From the IMG/VR virus record IMGVR_UViG_3300018432_000049, positions 1-22,906 of that record: 22,906 nucleotides of DNA, one strand, 5' to 3'. Made by a program: the position numbers and the translations under genes. Position 1 is the first letter of the stretch; each line of letters opens with the position of its first letter. Origin of the DNA: a virus. This document shows, piece by piece, positions 3,993-16,828 of this stretch. The notes under the pieces were generated by a model that searched no databases, was not told the origin of the DNA, and was given only the letters and a program-made list of their open reading frames with translations.

Positions 3993-4474
3993 TAGAGCAC
4001 CATCTCCAGAGAGGTGGTGGGCCGGGCCGCGTAGCTGAAGGTCACCGAGCACATCCGGTTGTGCAGCAGCACGTGGGACATGTCGATCCGGTAGTCCGAG
4101 CACTCACAGACCAAGGTCTCCATCAGGTCCTCGGTCCGGAACCGCACGTTGTACTCGTCCTGGGTGAACCAGTCGATCAGGCTCTGCTGGGCCTCGGCCA
4201 TCTGGGCGATGGTCTGGCCCCGGACGTAGACCATCAGCGAGCGCTTGGTGTTGTCCCGGACCTGTCCGGTGGAGTAGCTGCCCTCGAAGTAGTCGCTGTT
4301 GACCTCACGCCGCCGCCAGGTCTGCTCCACCTGGCCGAAGCCCTCCGGGGCGGCGCGGAAGTTCACGTGGTCGTTGATCGAGTGCCAGAAGCCCGCGTAG
4401 GACACCTCGATGTCGATGTCCATCGGCTCGTCGGAGTAGGGCAGGTTCACCGAACCCTGCTGGAACAGTCTCAC
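3992..4474 (-). CDS. Minor tail protein directly after the tape measure (distal-tail candidate)
   Basis: 160 residues from a GTG start that overlaps the tape measure stop (GTGA). The sequence is rich in charged and aromatic residues. A central segment describes a compact alpha/beta fold (about 70-110), and the C-terminal part ends in short beta strands. In siphoviruses the gene behind the tape measure usually encodes the distal tail protein, which connects tube and tip. Here the size is smaller than typical distal tail proteins (about 250 residues), so it could be only the tube-binding ring domain. The assignment rests on position and general character; no motif proves it. Confidence 0.5.
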   Translation of the reverse strand: MRLFQQGSVNLPYSDEPMDIDIEVSYAGFWHSINDHVNFRAAPEGFGQVEQTWRRREVNSDYFEGSYSTGQVRDNTKRSLMVYVRGQTIAQMAEAQQSLIDWFTQDEYNVRFRTEDLMETLVCECSDYRIDMSHVLLHNRMCSVTFSYAARPTTSLEMVL

Positions 4475-7400
4475 TTCGAGCTCCTCGGTGCCGTCAGGGC
4501 CGCCATCCGGGCCTCCGCCTCCAGCTGATGCAGCAGCTTGTTCGGGTCGTTGCTGACCACCTGCACGCTATCCACCCGCACGCTGTGGTCGTAGGAGACG
4601 TTGTTCGTGGTGGTGGTCCCGGGGCTGACCGTCTGGCCCGCCTTGCCTGCCATCATCGCCATCTTCGACTGGGTGTGGTTGAGGACCTGCTCGCCGCCCT
4701 TCAGCTTGACGAACTCGTAGCCGTGCTCACCGACCATCTTCCAGCCGGGCGTGGCTGCCGGGGTACCGGTCCACAGCCCGTCACCGCCGCGTGCGTAGTC
4801 CTTCTGCTGCCAGTAGGCCCCCGAGCTCTTCCGGTTCTTGTTGACGTAGCCGTAGTCGTCGGACTTGGGCACCCCGTGCACGTGGTTGGCGTACCGGGTA
4901 CCTGCAGAGGTGGTGGCCCACTGACCCCGGACCCAGGCGGCGACACCGGCCTTGCGCAGCGCGGCCTGCAGGGCGAAGGCCTGCTTCTTGGACCCGGTCG
5001 GAGTGGCGTCGATGGCGTCGGCCTCGTGGGAGTAGCCCGAGGCGGCCACCGCGCCGTAGTTCCAGCCGCCCTGGGTGACCTTGATGTCACCGGAGAAGAA
5101 CTTGTCGGCCTTCAGCAGGGTGTTCCTGAACTTCTCGGTGAACTGCCCGCCACGCCACTTCACGATCTTCTTGCCGCCCGTGCTCGGGCCGGACCCAGCC
5201 GTGCTGCCCTCGCTGGCCCCGAACTCGTTGCTGGGCAGCGCGTCGCCCTTGAACGACTTGTAGTACTCCTCGGACTTCTTGTTGCGCCGGTTGACGGCGG
5301 AGTCGGAGACGTCGGCGGCCCGCTCGTACTTGCGCAGGAAGGACCGGGTGGCGTTGAACACCGAGGTCTGCTTCCTCAGGTCCGAGCCAGCGGCACCCTC
5401 GGCGTGCGGTCCCTTGCCTGCCAGCTGCTGCATCAGCGCCCAGATCTGGTTCTCCAGGTTGTTCTTCTTGCCCGCCTTCTTCAAGATGTCGCCCAGCTTC
5501 GTGCCGGGGGTCCACTGCACCAGTCCGTAGCCCGCCCGGTGGTTGGTGCTGGAGGACCGCGCCCCGCCCTGGACGATGTTCCAGATCAGGTTGGACTCGT
5601 GGAACATGTTGCCCATCACGCCAGCGGCCTGCTTCTCGCTCAGGCCACCGGTCCGCAGCGCGTTCCAGATCCCTCGGGCCCCGCTCTTGCCTCCGGTATC
5701 GGCCCCACCGGAGGTGCCCACACCTGCTGCCGCGTCCGCCTCCTGCTTCGCCTTGACCTTCTTGTCGAAGTCCTTCTGGACCGCCGCAGCCAGCGCGTTC
5801 TGACGGAAGAAGAAGCTGTTGCGGTACTTGACCCAGTTCTTGTCCATGAAACCCATCGAGGACAGCAGCTTCTCGTACTCCACGAACGGCTTGGCCTTGG
5901 CGAAGTCGGGCATCGGGCCGGACGGGGTGTCCCCACCGCTACCCACGGTGGAGGCTCCCTTCAGCCACTTCATCGGGTCGATGTCCCTGCCGTTGACCCG
6001 GACCTCGAAGTGCAGATGGGGACCGGTGGCGTTGCCGGTGGCCCCCACGTCACCGATCTTCTCGCCCTTCTTGACCTTGTCCCCGGACGAGACGTTCTGG
6101 GCGCTCTGGTGGGCGTACCAGGTCTGCACCCCGTTGCCGTGGGAGAGCTTGGTGAAGTTGCCGTAGGCGCTGTTCCAGCCCCGGAAGACCACGGTGCCAT
6201 CGGCAGCGGCGTAGATGTCGGTGCCGGAGGGGTTGGGGAAGTCGGTGCCGGAGTGGAAGCCACGACCCAGCGAGGTCGATCCCGACCAGCCACCACGCTG
6301 GCCGTACTTGGCGCTCTGGGTGTGGGAGGTGGTGGGGTAGCCGCGCCCGGCAGAGGCGTCGTTGCTGGCGTAGCTGTTGGCGCTCATGCTGCCGGGGTTG
6401 GCCACCGTGGGCCCGCCGAAGGCCCGGCTACCGGCGTACAGGGCGGCGTTGACCGACTGCTGGTCATGGCTGTCCGGACCACCACGGGTGTTCCCGCCCA
6501 GGGTGCTGTTGCTGTCGCGGACGGGGGTGGAGGGACGGCTACCCGGCGTGGTCTTCGCCTTCTTGTCCGGGGAGATGCCCCACTCGTTGTAGACCTCGTA
6601 GATGTGCCCGGCGATGGCCTCGTTGCCGGAGACGATCTGCTTGTCCAGGGTGTCCATCAGGATGCCGGTGGCGTCGGTCTGCTCCTTGGTCAGCCCCTTG
6701 GTGTTCTCCGCGATGATCTTGCGGTTCTCTTCCCACGACCGGGCGGTGTTCTCGGCGTAGTGGTTGATGTTCTCCATCTGGAGATCCATCTGGTAGCTGA
6801 AATCGTCCTTCATGTCGATCCAGCCCTGGTTCATCTGCTTCCGCTGGCGCTCGCGGTTGATGTCGAACTGCTCGATCTGGTCCTCGTTCATCGTCTCCAT
6901 GTCGGTCTTCTGGTTCCGCATGGACTTCAGGAACGCCTTGCTGGACCGATCCAGGCTCCGCTCGAACTGCCTGTCGCCTCGCTTCAGGTTGCGCTCGCGG
7001 TCCTCCTCCTGCTGCTGGTACTGGGTGTTCGACTCGTCCCGGATCAGGTCACCGGTCTCGGCGATCCGGGCCTTGACCGCCTTGTTGTACTCGGCCACCA
7101 CCTTGGGGTCGCTCAGGTCCGGCAGCAGCCGCTCCAGCTGCTGGGCGTTCTGGGCCTCGTTCAGCCCGAGCTGGGAGATCGCCTGGTCGCTCAGCCCCGC
7201 CCTGCGGGCCGCCGCCAGGTTGGCCTGCTGCTCGACCAGCCGCTTCTGCTGGTCCTCCATGTTCTGCAGCAGGGACTGCGAGCTCCAGGTGCGCTGTACC
7301 GTGACCCGCTGGTAGGCGTTGTAGAGGGTCTTCGCCTGTTCCTCGATGTTCCGCTTGACCATCCGGTCGTGGTCTTCCTCCTCCTCTCGCCGCGACCGGT

Positions 7401-10400: not shown

Positions 10401-11247
10401 TGTTCAGCTCGGTGAAGATGTCGGTGATGACGTCGGCCTTGGGCATCGCCTTGAACTGCTCGACGGTGACACCCAGGATGTCGCTGTAGGCCTGCAGCTC
10501 CGGTGACCCGTACTGGATCGCCCGGTTCACATCGGACAGGATCTTGGTGTAGACGTTGCTTGCCGCCCCACCATCCGCCCCGGCCTTGGAGAAGGCCGCC
10601 GAGATGCCGGTGATCTGCTGGGCGCTCATCCCCATGGTCTTGGACAGGGGAGCGATGCTGTTGGCGAACTGCAGGGTGGCCTCGGCCCCGGCCCCGTAGT
10701 TCTGGGACAGGTTGGCCACCATCGAGGAGTACTTGTTGACGGCCCCCTGTCCGGTGCCCATAGTCCGGATGAACTGCTGCTGGCTGGAGGCCAGGGCACC
10801 GATGTTCTCCCCGGTGACCGCTGCCAGCTTGGCGTAGGACCGGGCGGTCTCCTGCGTCTTGGTGAAGGGGACGTTCAGCCGGTTCAGGTTGGTGACCAAG
10901 GCGATGGCGTCGGACCCGGTCATCCCCAGGGTCTTGCGCAGGTTGGCGACGGTGGCGTTGTAGGCGTTGGTCTTCTGACCCGTCATCACCGTCCGGGCCG
11001 ACAGCTGCTCCATCTGCTGGTCCAGCCGGGCAGCGGCCAGACCGGCTGCGGTCAGGGAGGCGACATTGGCAGCGGTGATGAAGGTGAGCTTGCGGTCTGC
11101 CGACTTCCACAGCGACTGCATCTGCGCGCCAGCAGCGGCGAGGGCCTGGGTGAACCCGTTGGTGGCGGTGACCGCCTGACCCATCTGCTGTTCGTACGGT
11201 TTGACGTTGGCATCAAGTGTGACTGTGTAGTCATCAGCCTGAGCCAT
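4471..11247 (-). CDS. Tape measure protein with M23, tail-lysozyme and M15-like domains
   Basis: 2258 residues; the ATG overlaps the chaperone stop by 14 bases. It sets tail length and is ejected with DNA. The N-terminal third is helical and Q/A-rich, with hydrophobic stretches at about 370-430 and 655-725. Two blocks of 11-residue repeats lie at 1236-1301 and 1415-1513. An M23-type endopeptidase domain covers about 1650-1765 (H1665, D1669, HLH at 1744-1746). A phage tail lysozyme-like domain covers about 1855-2000 (catalytic candidate E1884 in FHESN; GYGLVQWT downstream). A third, M15-like region covers about 2050-2135 (SHEADAID with H2074; HVHG at 2122-2125). The C-terminus has the GEHGYEFV-type motif seen at the ends of many tape measures. 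The order chaperones, tape measure, tip genes confirms the identity. Its length predicts a long tail. Confidence 0.95.
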   Translation of the reverse strand: MAQADDYTVTLDANVKPYEQQMGQAVTATNGFTQALAAAGAQMQSLWKSADRKLTFITAANVASLTAAGLAAARLDQQMEQLSARTVMTGQKTNAYNATVANLRKTLGMTGSDAIALVTNLNRLNVPFTKTQETARSYAKLAAVTGENIGALASSQQQFIRTMGTGQGAVNKYSSMVANLSQNYGAGAEATLQFANSIAPLSKTMGMSAQQITGISAAFSKAGADGGAASNVYTKILSDVNRAIQYGSPELQAYSDILGVTVEQFKAMPKADVITDIFTELNKQGPQGIKTLERLGLEGVRSQKAVQAVVAQGGLREGINQADKGWGSTAKFDKSAEEAMNGFYDSMQKTTQSLQTFAQGVGSVFVPAMEKVANVITPIAQTLGALGTAVSNMPDLAKWAGAAVLGLGALVPMLPKILSILSATSLLPAIGRGSIGQGFALGRNPGRNLSDAQQTFVGGGGNAMYRRMFSAAMYAGDMFNPIGRRGRLEDIEFQQAGGGGRKNVSSGWARGADWMAERGILPANYAEQVMRAQSGVSGGLRKAGIGGINLLGGIAQEQLRPWTPGYLEDSARASEKNRFALTQENRLRDTGPGRAVMGGLGRLGFGASREGVALNAEMTKEAAAGVTKNFKELSSSLKDTNKGVKTSATVFGQLARSIGQTGLMGAKAGAGFIGGVGYGAARTGLGLAGRAGSALFSGLGGPVGLGIGGATAAAGFAASSVMDAYATRKQAFTNEVGVDSAPGAAYRMALGEATKATRTFAKAMEDAGVGTEKAVSGMGEALLITAEQAKTAFGRMDLIEDEQIKKGSRADVERYAAAVLGTASPQAANKLKMDVAARFGQTQGQEILNTAYGNRGNMQNLFGAISPENAGDRWWNQGALFKQTRLSEGNKASAEILKGSLTGNIARAAETGGAEEVGRVQQAQFAGYGQEELRARRSGLDTAPAQRARRDAILNSFGVAENDKASREALTKAMDKIAERSMGVEDPKELEKIFAQGMREGLGGTDLGFRLQQAQQQGGMISSAEYMMKGNADLGPLANFGSQMVIDRLRTTEAGRVATEIDGSKLGGQFWNARQNFNAALGAEANEDTQITADVSMAQQLIANAGGDFSKAAGQVQLMGNASGAATDKINQHTNAIEAMIVAERQYANTMSGKTTIQDRLATGRGDFANQMRTFVDNPTAPDNAKNLKASVDAAKDLRMEGAQQAQALADQFVNLTWQRQQGEEQLARTRSRMLRDFGLQQQWQEEDFNRQREINLRNFNLQRKRAQEDFDLQQRYAREDFDRSRREEEEDHDRMVKRNIEEQAKTLYNAYQRVTVQRTWSSQSLLQNMEDQQKRLVEQQANLAAARRAGLSDQAISQLGLNEAQNAQQLERLLPDLSDPKVVAEYNKAVKARIAETGDLIRDESNTQYQQQEEDRERNLKRGDRQFERSLDRSSKAFLKSMRNQKTDMETMNEDQIEQFDINRERQRKQMNQGWIDMKDDFSYQMDLQMENINHYAENTARSWEENRKIIAENTKGLTKEQTDATGILMDTLDKQIVSGNEAIAGHIYEVYNEWGISPDKKAKTTPGSRPSTPVRDSNSTLGGNTRGGPDSHDQQSVNAALYAGSRAFGGPTVANPGSMSANSYASNDASAGRGYPTTSHTQSAKYGQRGGWSGSTSLGRGFHSGTDFPNPSGTDIYAAADGTVVFRGWNSAYGNFTKLSHGNGVQTWYAHQSAQNVSSGDKVKKGEKIGDVGATGNATGPHLHFEVRVNGRDIDPMKWLKGASTVGSGGDTPSGPMPDFAKAKPFVEYEKLLSSMGFMDKNWVKYRNSFFFRQNALAAAVQKDFDKKVKAKQEADAAAGVGTSGGADTGGKSGARGIWNALRTGGLSEKQAAGVMGNMFHESNLIWNIVQGGARSSSTNHRAGYGLVQWTPGTKLGDILKKAGKKNNLENQIWALMQQLAGKGPHAEGAAGSDLRKQTSVFNATRSFLRKYERAADVSDSAVNRRNKKSEEYYKSFKGDALPSNEFGASEGSTAGSGPSTGGKKIVKWRGGQFTEKFRNTLLKADKFFSGDIKVTQGGWNYGAVAASGYSHEADAIDATPTGSKKQAFALQAALRKAGVAAWVRGQWATTSAGTRYANHVHGVPKSDDYGYVNKNRKSSGAYWQQKDYARGGDGLWTGTPAATPGWKMVGEHGYEFVKLKGGEQVLNHTQSKMAMMAGKAGQTVSPGTTTTNNVSYDHSVRVDSVQVVSNDPNKLLHQLEAEARMAALTAPRSSK

Positions 11248-12030
11248 TCTCTGCCGCCTTCTTCCGGTCCCGGATGGCCTTCTCGTACCCCTGACGCTGC
11301 TTCTCTAGGAAGGCCGCTGAAGATGGCACCAGAATGATTGTCGTCCCTGGAAGCCGTCCTGTCTCCTCACCGGCGACGTGGCGGGCGTAGCAGCCTGGAC
11401 AATGTTTCTCCACGGGGGTATACGCGAAACGGTTCTCCCGCCACTCCCAAGCCATCGTCCCGCACAGGGCGCAGCGGTCAGACTCCTCCAGCAGGTGGGC
11501 GTGCAACTTCGCCCGGTCCTCGGGTTCCCAGTCCAGCAAGGCCGAATGGGGCAGTCCCTTGTCGGCGCACCAGGACAGCTCCAGTGCGAACTTGGTGTCC
11601 TGCCTCAGCCGCGCCCGCCAAAAGGGACGTCGAACCCCCGCGAGGTGGTACCCAGCACGATGTTCAGCAGGTGACCCAGCTCACCCGGAGACCACTCCTC
11701 CGAGGTCCAGACGTCGGTCCACTCCTCCAGGTTCATCTTGGGCTCTTGGATCGAGGCGGCGAACAGGGCGGGTGGGAAGGTCTTGGAGTTGGCCCCGATG
11801 AGGTCGTCCTCCTCCTTGTTCCGCCGCTTGGGGTGAGCAGCCACCAGGTCGTCGAACACCCGCTGGTGCAGGGCCTGGATGGTCACCTCGACGATGTTGC
11901 CGTCCAGGGTGATCTTCTGCTTGTCGATCCGCCTCTTCTTCTTCAGGAACTGGTCCCGCAGTGAGACCTTGTCTTCACCGAGGGCCTCTTCACTCAGCGT
12001 GGTGTTGTCGAGCGCGATCTTCGCGGTCAT
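11234..12030 (-). CDS. Tail assembly chaperone, long form made by -1 frameshift
   Basis: This is the G-T type product, about 265 residues. Ribosomes start at the ATG at 12030, slip back one base at CCCTTTT (11620-11626, codons 136-137), and continue in the -1 frame to the TGA at 11234-11236. The -1 frame is open through the whole overlap. Its downstream sequence (ELSWCADKGLPHSALLDW) has the form usual in the second chaperone of actinobacterial phages, which supports fusion over separate starts. The added part carries two CxxC pairs (C187/C190 and C211/C214 of the fusion). In lambda-like phages the long form binds the tape measure during tail assembly and is absent from the virion. Confidence 0.87.
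11605..12030 (-). CDS. Tail assembly chaperone, short form (no frameshift)
   Basis: The 141-residue product made when no slip occurs; it ends at the TGA at 11605-11607 shortly after the slippery site. An AGAGGGG ribosome site lies just upstream of the ATG. The protein is charged and helical, with KKKRRIDKQK near residue 30 and an acidic, W-rich C-terminal third. This is typical of the gpG-like chaperone that coats the tape measure before the tube forms. It lies between the major tail protein and the tape measure, the standard place. Identity follows from order, size and the overlapping second frame. Confidence 0.85.
   Translation of the reverse strand: MTAKIALDNTTLSEEALGEDKVSLRDQFLKKKRRIDKQKITLDGNIVEVTIQALHQRVFDDLVAAHPKRRNKEEDDLIGANSKTFPPALFAASIQEPKMNLEEWTDVWTSEEWSPGELGHLLNIVLGTTSRGFDVPFGGRG
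11620..11626 (-). promoter_or_regulatory. Programmed -1 ribosomal frameshift site CCCTTTT
   Basis: In the chaperone reading frame the codons are CCT TTT preceded by C, giving the heptamer C CCT TTT. Both tRNAs can re-pair after a one-base backward slip (CCC and TTT). The zero frame stops 13 bases after the heptamer, while the -1 frame stays open for about 128 further codons. This arrangement of slippery site and overlapping frames is conserved between the two tail chaperones of most siphoviruses. The GC-rich sequence after the site may fold and promote slipping, but no clear hairpin or pseudoknot was established. Confidence 0.87.
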
Positions 12031-15814: not shown

Positions 15815-16828
15815 CTACACGTCAGCAGCCGTGCCGACGACGTCGGTGAGGAACAGACCGCAGTCCCGGCTGACGACCTGCATGGAGTACGTCATCTCAC
15901 CCTCGATACGGTCCGAGCGGATCGAGTCCATGCGGAACCGAGCCATCCGGATGCCCTGCGCGTTGCCGCCCAGGTAGCCGTTCCAGGTGAAGGTGTACCC
16001 GGCTGCCGGGCTCATCAGAGAGGGGCTCGACGGGGTGTAGCAGAGCAGAGCGTTGTTCGGGTTGGCGATGAACTTGTTCACCGCAGCCGCGTCCTGCAGA
16101 GCCATGTCCGGGATGTCCACGCCATCGGAGTAGGTCGCGTAGGAGACCAGGATCTTCTCCACTCCGAAGAGCGTGCTGAGCAGCTCCTCGGTGACGATGC
16201 CCCGCTGGGTGTACTTGATCCGGTCGATGATCGCCGGGTGGTTCTTCAGCGCCTTCAGGCAGTTCGCGCCCATCACCAGCGTGTTCGGCTTGAAGCCGGT
16301 CTGCTGGATGAACTGCACCGTGGCGGTGGCGAAGAAGCCGACCGGGTCCGAGGTGGCGAGATCCCACCGCAAGCCCTCCGGGTTGCCCCCAGCGGTCTTC
16401 TTCAACTGCTGGTCGGTCTGCCAGACGCCGGGCCGGAAGAAGCTGGCCGCCCAGTCCAGGTCTCGCTTGATCAGCAGCTGGTTGGTCACGAACGCGGTGG
16501 CGTCGGAGTCCATCTTGAACAGTGAGTCCGCGTTGGCCCTCAGCTGGTCGTCGATGTCCTTGTGGACGCCGTACACGTGCGCGAAGTAGCTGTCCGTGCC
16601 GACGTTCCAGCCGGTACCCGGAGTCTCGGTGCTCGGGGCCCGACGCTGCACGTCGGTCCGTCGCCAGTCGCTCTTGGAGTACTTCCAGTAGAGATCCGAC
16701 TGCTTGGCGACAGGGACCTTGGGGAACACCTTGTCCGCGATGAAGTTCTTCGCGGACTGGATGTAAGCGACGCTGACGTTGGTCAGCGGCTGGTTGATGT
16801 GCAGATCATGCTGCGTGGGGCTCGGCAT
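15815..16828 (-). CDS. Major capsid protein
   Basis: 337 residues; GAGAGGAG lies upstream of the ATG and 14 bases separate it from the decoration gene. It forms the icosahedral shell, most likely in the HK97 fold. The N-terminal 50 residues carry a segment usual for this capsid type (LTNVSVAYIQSAKNFIADKVFP). A long helix with an acidic stretch spans about 95-130. The central domain has PNTLVMGANCLKALKNHP, followed by an LFGVEKILV strand. The C-terminal domain ends in a beta sheet with RMDSIRSDRIEGEM. The context (scaffold and decoration genes before, connectors after) and size are as expected for a phage capsid protein. The 'E-type' family of lambda-like capsids is the nearest match by eye. 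Confidence 0.9.
   Translation of the reverse strand: MPSPTQHDLHINQPLTNVSVAYIQSAKNFIADKVFPKVPVAKQSDLYWKYSKSDWRRTDVQRRAPSTETPGTGWNVGTDSYFAHVYGVHKDIDDQLRANADSLFKMDSDATAFVTNQLLIKRDLDWAASFFRPGVWQTDQQLKKTAGGNPEGLRWDLATSDPVGFFATATVQFIQQTGFKPNTLVMGANCLKALKNHPAIIDRIKYTQRGIVTEELLSTLFGVEKILVSYATYSDGVDIPDMALQDAAAVNKFIANPNNALLCYTPSSPSLMSPAAGYTFTWNGYLGGNAQGIRMARFRMDSIRSDRIEGEMTYSMQVVSRDCGLFLTDVVGTAADV

Follow-up and report, generated by a model that had tools for sequence, protein, structure and literature searches.

Three consecutive domains resembling cell-wall enzymes in a viral tape measure protein, the third LAS-like and lacking a family model

We detected three consecutive domains resembling cell-wall enzymes near the C-terminus of a 2258-aa tape measure protein encoded in a 22,906-base virus record, the whole of which is called the window here (Table 1). 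The C-terminal part of this protein is probably a peptidoglycan-cutting module, in which the predicted activities are those of an M23 endopeptidase, a tail lysozyme of the muramidase type, and a zinc peptidase of the LAS superfamily (M15-like). Three such domains in a row had been proposed in an earlier note on the same DNA, and all three are present: the first two are recognized by Pfam models and the third by its homologues and predicted fold, and every residue number given in that note is exact when checked against the translation of the open reading frame.

The gene was identified as that of a tape measure protein by its N-terminal profile and by its place after the gpG/gpGT chaperones. 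PhageMin_Tail matched residues 99–283 (E 2.5e-12, Pfam), TIGR01760 tape_meas_TP901 matched as well (E 5.8e-12, NCBIfam), and the gene comes immediately after a tail-chaperone pair with a frameshift. After the slippery heptamer, the −1 frame is open to 11234 (DTKFALELSWCADKGLPHSALLDW...), this being the gpG/gpGT frameshift of the tail assembly chaperones. Neither the Rfam scan nor the tRNA scan gave a match in the window. The best matches of the major capsid protein were to Pseudomonas, Rhizobium, and Arthrobacter phages (39–44%), whereas the tail enzymes point to Actinobacteria, so the genome may be a mosaic or the host may be uncertain.

Table 1. Positions of the tape measure gene, its C-terminal domains and motifs, and neighboring features in the window
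Feature	Window positions	Strand	Basis or remark
Tape measure protein gene, 2258 aa	4471..11247	-	ORF; PhageMin_Tail; TIGR01760; chaperone neighbor
Peptidase_M23 (PF01551), residues 1664-1758	5974..6258	-	hmmscan E 9.3e-36, full-length profile
M23 H-x3-D motif, H1665 + D1669	6241..6255	-	position check
M23 third histidine H1713 (YAHQ)	6109..6111	-	role by analogy with LytM His260 (PMC9662197)
M23 HLH motif, residues 1744-1746	6010..6018	-	position check
Phage_lysozyme2 (PF18013), residues 1857-1999	5251..5679	-	E 6.4e-25, profile positions 3-140 of 140
Presumed catalytic E1884 in FHESN (residues 1882-1886)	5596..5598	-	position check; WSESN in relative L002
Domain 3, LAS/M15-like metallopeptidase-like, about residues 2024-2161	4765..5178	-	alignment A3, structure model, profile links
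Domain 3 H-x5-D, H2074 + D2080 (predicted Zn ligands)	5008..5028	-	SHEADAID 2073-2080
Domain 3 HVH, H2122 (predicted water-activating) + H2124 (predicted Zn ligand)	4876..4884	-	HVHG 2122-2125
Canonical -1 slippery heptamer C_CCT_TTT	11626-11620	-	near end of gpG-like ORF, within 11234-12030
Major capsid protein	15815-16828	-	nearest capsids from Pseudomonas and Rhizobium phages, 42-44%

The first domain scored far above the curated cut-off for Peptidase_M23 (122.4 against 28.7 bits, profile positions 2–96 of 96), and the HxxxD, the HxH, and the extra catalytic histidine of this family are all present (H1665/D1669, H1744/H1746, and H1713), bearing out the M23 pattern read earlier from H1665, D1669, and HLH. 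A 98-base stretch of this domain (window about 5971–6068, minus strand) shares ~76% DNA identity with small endolysins of Microbacterium foliorum phages. The second domain, with the Glu in FHESN and with GYGLVQWT at residues 1906–1913, scored 88.4 bits against a curated cut-off of 28.2 for Phage_lysozyme2, and the tail-lysozyme-like domain that those two motifs and E1884 had suggested is thereby placed in PF18013.

No family model in Pfam, PHROGs, or NCBIfam matches domain 3, and direct sequence searches against these collections and the PDB were set aside as giving chance matches only. About 15 further sequences from phages or prophages have the domain close to the C-terminal end of a tape measure protein: iterative searches found a 77.9-kb contig (L002) with the same three-domain tape measure protein, 79% identical in domain 3, as well as Dulem virus 32, further IMG/VR contigs, and Propionibacteriaceae genomes. 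Across 13 tape measure sequences, divergent to about 34% identity, the motif is invariant (S-G-x-S-H-x2-D-A-x-D, L-R, and H-x-H-x2-P). The nearest relatives are actinobacterial and phage proteins of about 300 aa with SAGTHDGGGxxD and HIH, and the tape-measure set aligned with this actinobacterial GTHDGGG family at Prob 99.8 and E 1.8e-29 (hhalign). In a genome search confined to a single bacterial class, the one to which Arachnia propionica belongs, on which the family label "actinobacterial" rests, 21 of 395 genomes had a domain 3 profile match; leaving aside an Arachnia prophage tape measure, nearly all matches were ORFs of about 200–440 aa with SAGTHDGGGxxD...HIHAVAI. Scanning with the actinobacterial set gave 64 viral loci; most of these are stand-alone genes of 150–300 aa, and some lie in tape measure proteins of 1200–2500 aa. 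The family occurs in 2 of 50,697 isolated-phage records, and this near-absence may explain the lack of a database model. Plasmid records held no match to the window's domain 3 and one match, in a Nonomuraea record, to an H-x6-D relative.

Several members of the family were observed outside tape measure proteins. Actinobacterial genomes (L044–L062) encode proteins of about 300 aa with the unmodelled LAS-like domain, some of which have secretion-like N-termini and a PG_binding_1-like part; these chromosomal proteins are probably an uncharacterised actinobacterial wall hydrolase family. Dulem virus 32 carries, downstream of its tail genes, a second, stand-alone LAS-like domain annotated as hypothetical (L003 14697–15503, XCD05795.1), which may be its endolysin. 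A 177-aa ORF with THRGGGVAD and HSH (L068 291–821, minus strand) lies on the contig of L011, a phage whose tape measure protein has the domain too. A check for neighboring holins showed a small ORF with a predicted TM stretch near 20 of 30 stand-alone members; this tally had no control and is not counted as evidence.

Structure prediction for residues 2045–2135, on which the earlier note had let its third enzyme stand or fall, gave not a non-hydrolase fold but a model that resembles LAS zinc peptidases, several phage endolysins among them. The AlphaFold2 model of domain 3 has a pLDDT of 80.8 and a pTM of 0.81, and its best 16 VIA-align rows were all LAS proteins (Z 7.2 to 5.2), including Hedgehog (7.2; rmsd 3.5 Å, 101 aligned), LysECD7 (6.4), ChiX (6.0), RB49 endolysin (5.5), and Ply500 (5.2); the first unrelated row also had a Z of 5.2, and all values lie below 8, where a score can reflect a common arrangement. 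Foldseek gave no significant E-value (best 0.17) and was dropped as fold evidence on its own. The H-x6-D relative L070, modelled as a control (pLDDT 86.2), had LAS proteins in 50 of 50 VIA-align rows, with Z of 8.1 for Hedgehog, 7.6 for VanX, 7.4 for the Streptomyces albus G peptidase, 6.7 for MepA, and 6.4 for Ply500; VanXY, VanY, and LdcB were also among its structural matches. The predicted fold of domain 3 thus resembles that of LAS zinc peptidases such as Hedgehog, VanX, Ply500, and LysECD7, and the H(x)nD and HxH arrangement of this superfamily (two His, one Asp) can be read from its sequence.

Profile comparisons point the same way, with Pfam M15_3 nearer than M15_4. The actinobacterial set aligned with the Pfam M15_3 sequences at a score of 36.8 (hhalign, P 8e-6; none of 30 column shuffles exceeded 16.2), the H-x6-D and HxH motifs lining up, and the window-led alignment A9 scored 27.5 (P 5e-4); the tape-measure set alone scored 19.0, inside a shuffled range of up to 20.1. 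M15_4 was also considered as the nearest family and rejected, its hhalign result being weak (best P 0.0019, with A6). Pfam M15 models gave no match to domain 3 or its relatives with hits reported up to E 10, domain 3 stays under the curated cut-off, and its spacing is H-x5-D, not the H-x6-D of M15. Because no curated M15 model is reached, we use the name LAS-like for domain 3 and leave it outside M15. Its sequence has no acidic residue at the place of the Hedgehog catalytic Glu, four residues before HxH.

A fold likeness with Z below 8, which can reflect a common arrangement, in a domain that sits in a structural protein, would also be expected if domain 3 were a structural element of the tail tip with a mere LAS likeness and no relation to hydrolysis. 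This reading is highly improbable, as the family also occurs stand-alone, and some members outside tape measure proteins are fused to GH25 (E 1.3e-19), CHAP, LysM, and PG_binding_1; chromosomal family proteins exist as well, one of them with a weak PG_binding_1 match.

The earlier note had observed that H2074 and D2080 lie one residue closer than in standard M15 enzymes, and had taken this to mean that the region could be a divergent family or inactive. The short spacing is real and common to a branch of tape measure proteins: all 83 family members examined have H-x(5 or 6)-D with HxH, 17 of them with H-x5-D and 66 with H-x6-D, and in the tree the 16 tape-measure H-x5-D rows fall on one side of a branch with support 99/92, found in 99% of bootstrap trees. 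Judged from these sequences, H-x5-D is a heritable trait of one tape-measure branch and not a local defect. The six tape-measure rows with H-x6-D add two label changes to the tree; tape measure proteins have therefore probably acquired the domain on more than one occasion, though the few columns of the tree call for caution. Divergence is supported by the lack of a Pfam match, the separate branch, and the relatives with standard H-x6-D; inactivity finds no such support, since all of the expected metal ligands are invariant.

Domain 3 could still be an inactive LAS pseudo-enzyme with a role in peptidoglycan binding or in assembly, leaving the M23 and lysozyme domains as the sole cutters. Its H-x5-D is one residue shorter than in M15-like relatives, and the model is weakest before H2074 (pLDDT <50 at 2067–2070, with a mean of about 66 for 2070–2079), which makes any metal geometry with H-x5-D tentative. 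Degenerate LAS members are also known, including inactive LytM factors (PMC8416486) and Drosophila Hedgehog, which is without Zn ligands (PMC4102407). The predicted ligands and HxH of domain 3, however, are conserved without exception across the 16 tape measure rows with H-x5-D and in one further member (L052). Pseudo-enzymes usually lose ligands. Moreover, M23 or tail-lysozyme matches were absent from eight sampled domain-3 tape measure proteins (seven of the eight scanned over the relevant part), and in such proteins domain 3 would be the only or main cutter. The dN/dS values against L002 are similar for domain 3 (0.45), the M23 domain (0.38), and the lysozyme domain (0.48), giving no sign of decay. 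In M23 enzymes, H(x)nD spacing varies between members (3, 7, and 12; PMC9662197), so shortening by one residue need not abolish function. We therefore consider a dead domain 3 unlikely.

With domain 3 read as a peptidase, the protein most likely delivers the M23 endopeptidase, the lysozyme, and a LAS-type peptidase for stem peptides while the DNA enters the cell; the tape measure proteins of T5 and TM4 have been shown to carry peptidoglycan-cleaving domains (PMC6116005). We suggest that the tail tip would open at the cell surface and the tape measure protein be expelled, its C-terminal part being near the tip. The lysozyme would then cut glycan strands, M23 would cut cross-bridges or D-Ala-mDAP links, and domain 3 would cut another stem-peptide bond, using Zn coordinated by H2074, D2080, and H2124 and a water molecule that H2122 activates; L-Ala-D-Glu as its target is a guess, suggested by the endolysins nearest in structure. 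Together these cuts may make a local opening through which the tail tube and DNA would pass. The roles of the domain 3 HxH residues are drawn by analogy with M23 and LAS enzymes (PMC9662197, PMC4102407), the first His of HxH having been proposed to activate water in M23 (PMC9662197). The three domains might instead not be used together, if processing of the tape measure protein frees one domain as an endolysin or for another stage: tape measure proteins are often cleaved, as noted for ArV2 (PMC4205034), and the M23 stretch resembles small Microbacterium phage endolysins at the DNA level. Domain 3 lies inside long tape measure frames in the sampled relatives too, however, and we regard such separate use as improbable, leaving joint delivery during DNA entry as the preferred reading.

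Virion-associated lysins have one or two lytic domains, most of them one, according to a 2017 review (PMC5380687), so the claim that three in a row would be unusual holds as far as it can be checked. Among the tape measure proteins examined, only those of the window and L002 had all three domains. Another (L115) combines the LAS-like domain with an SLT lytic transglycosylase domain over the cut-off (E 2e-10), and in two more (L013 and L098) the SLT match is just under it. Literature searches found no tape measure protein with three catalytic domains and, in 5.39 million papers, no mention of GTHDGGG or similar motif strings, both weak results because most subscription papers were outside their scope. 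The chances are about even that we are dealing with an undescribed LAS family, common in uncultured phages and actinobacterial chromosomes, with an H-x5-D branch dedicated to tape measures, and with the first tape measure to have three different lytic activities. If true, this would provide a testable new wall-cutting enzyme family, probably aimed at actinobacterial walls, and a clear further example of LAS zinc sites that differ in H-D spacing, and it would mean that one tape measure protein can hold every tool needed to cut both glycan and peptide bonds.

Among known systems that we scanned, Staphylococcus phage SPbeta-like 2 resembles the window in having PF18013 and M23 in one tape measure protein of 2757 aa, Mammaliicoccus phage phi6255 has the same lysozyme and M23 pair but in a split gene, and Staphylococcus SA1 pairs a lysozyme with NlpC/P60. 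The phi29 gp13 type, which also joins a tail lysozyme to M23, is a tail-tip enzyme and not a tape measure, and it is not known to have a LAS/M15-like domain. In a 2023 enterococcal survey, the tail lysozyme was combined with M23 or CHAP, architecture DA3 being tail lysozyme plus M23 (PMC10194240). CwlP of SP-beta joins a lysozyme and an endopeptidase, according to the 2017 review, which cites Sudiarta 2010 (PMC5380687); unlike the window, CwlP and the SPbeta-like tape measures have two lytic domains, lysozyme then M23, without domain 3. The M15/LAS endolysins and endopeptidases (Ply500, LysECD7, the RB49 and T5 L-Ala-D-Glu peptidases, and ChiX) share the predicted fold and the H..D..H pattern of domain 3, which differs from them in having H-x5-D where they have H-x6-D, an HxH with no acid close by, and no significant M15 model match. 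The unmodelled actinobacterial GTHDGGG...HIH proteins and their phage relatives (such as L070) belong to the same family as domain 3 by profile and tree, but have H-x6-D and are usually stand-alone or endolysin-like fusions. The M23 and lysozyme pair and the underlying themes are already known, and what is new is the combination of the three domains, one of them from an unmodelled enzyme family.
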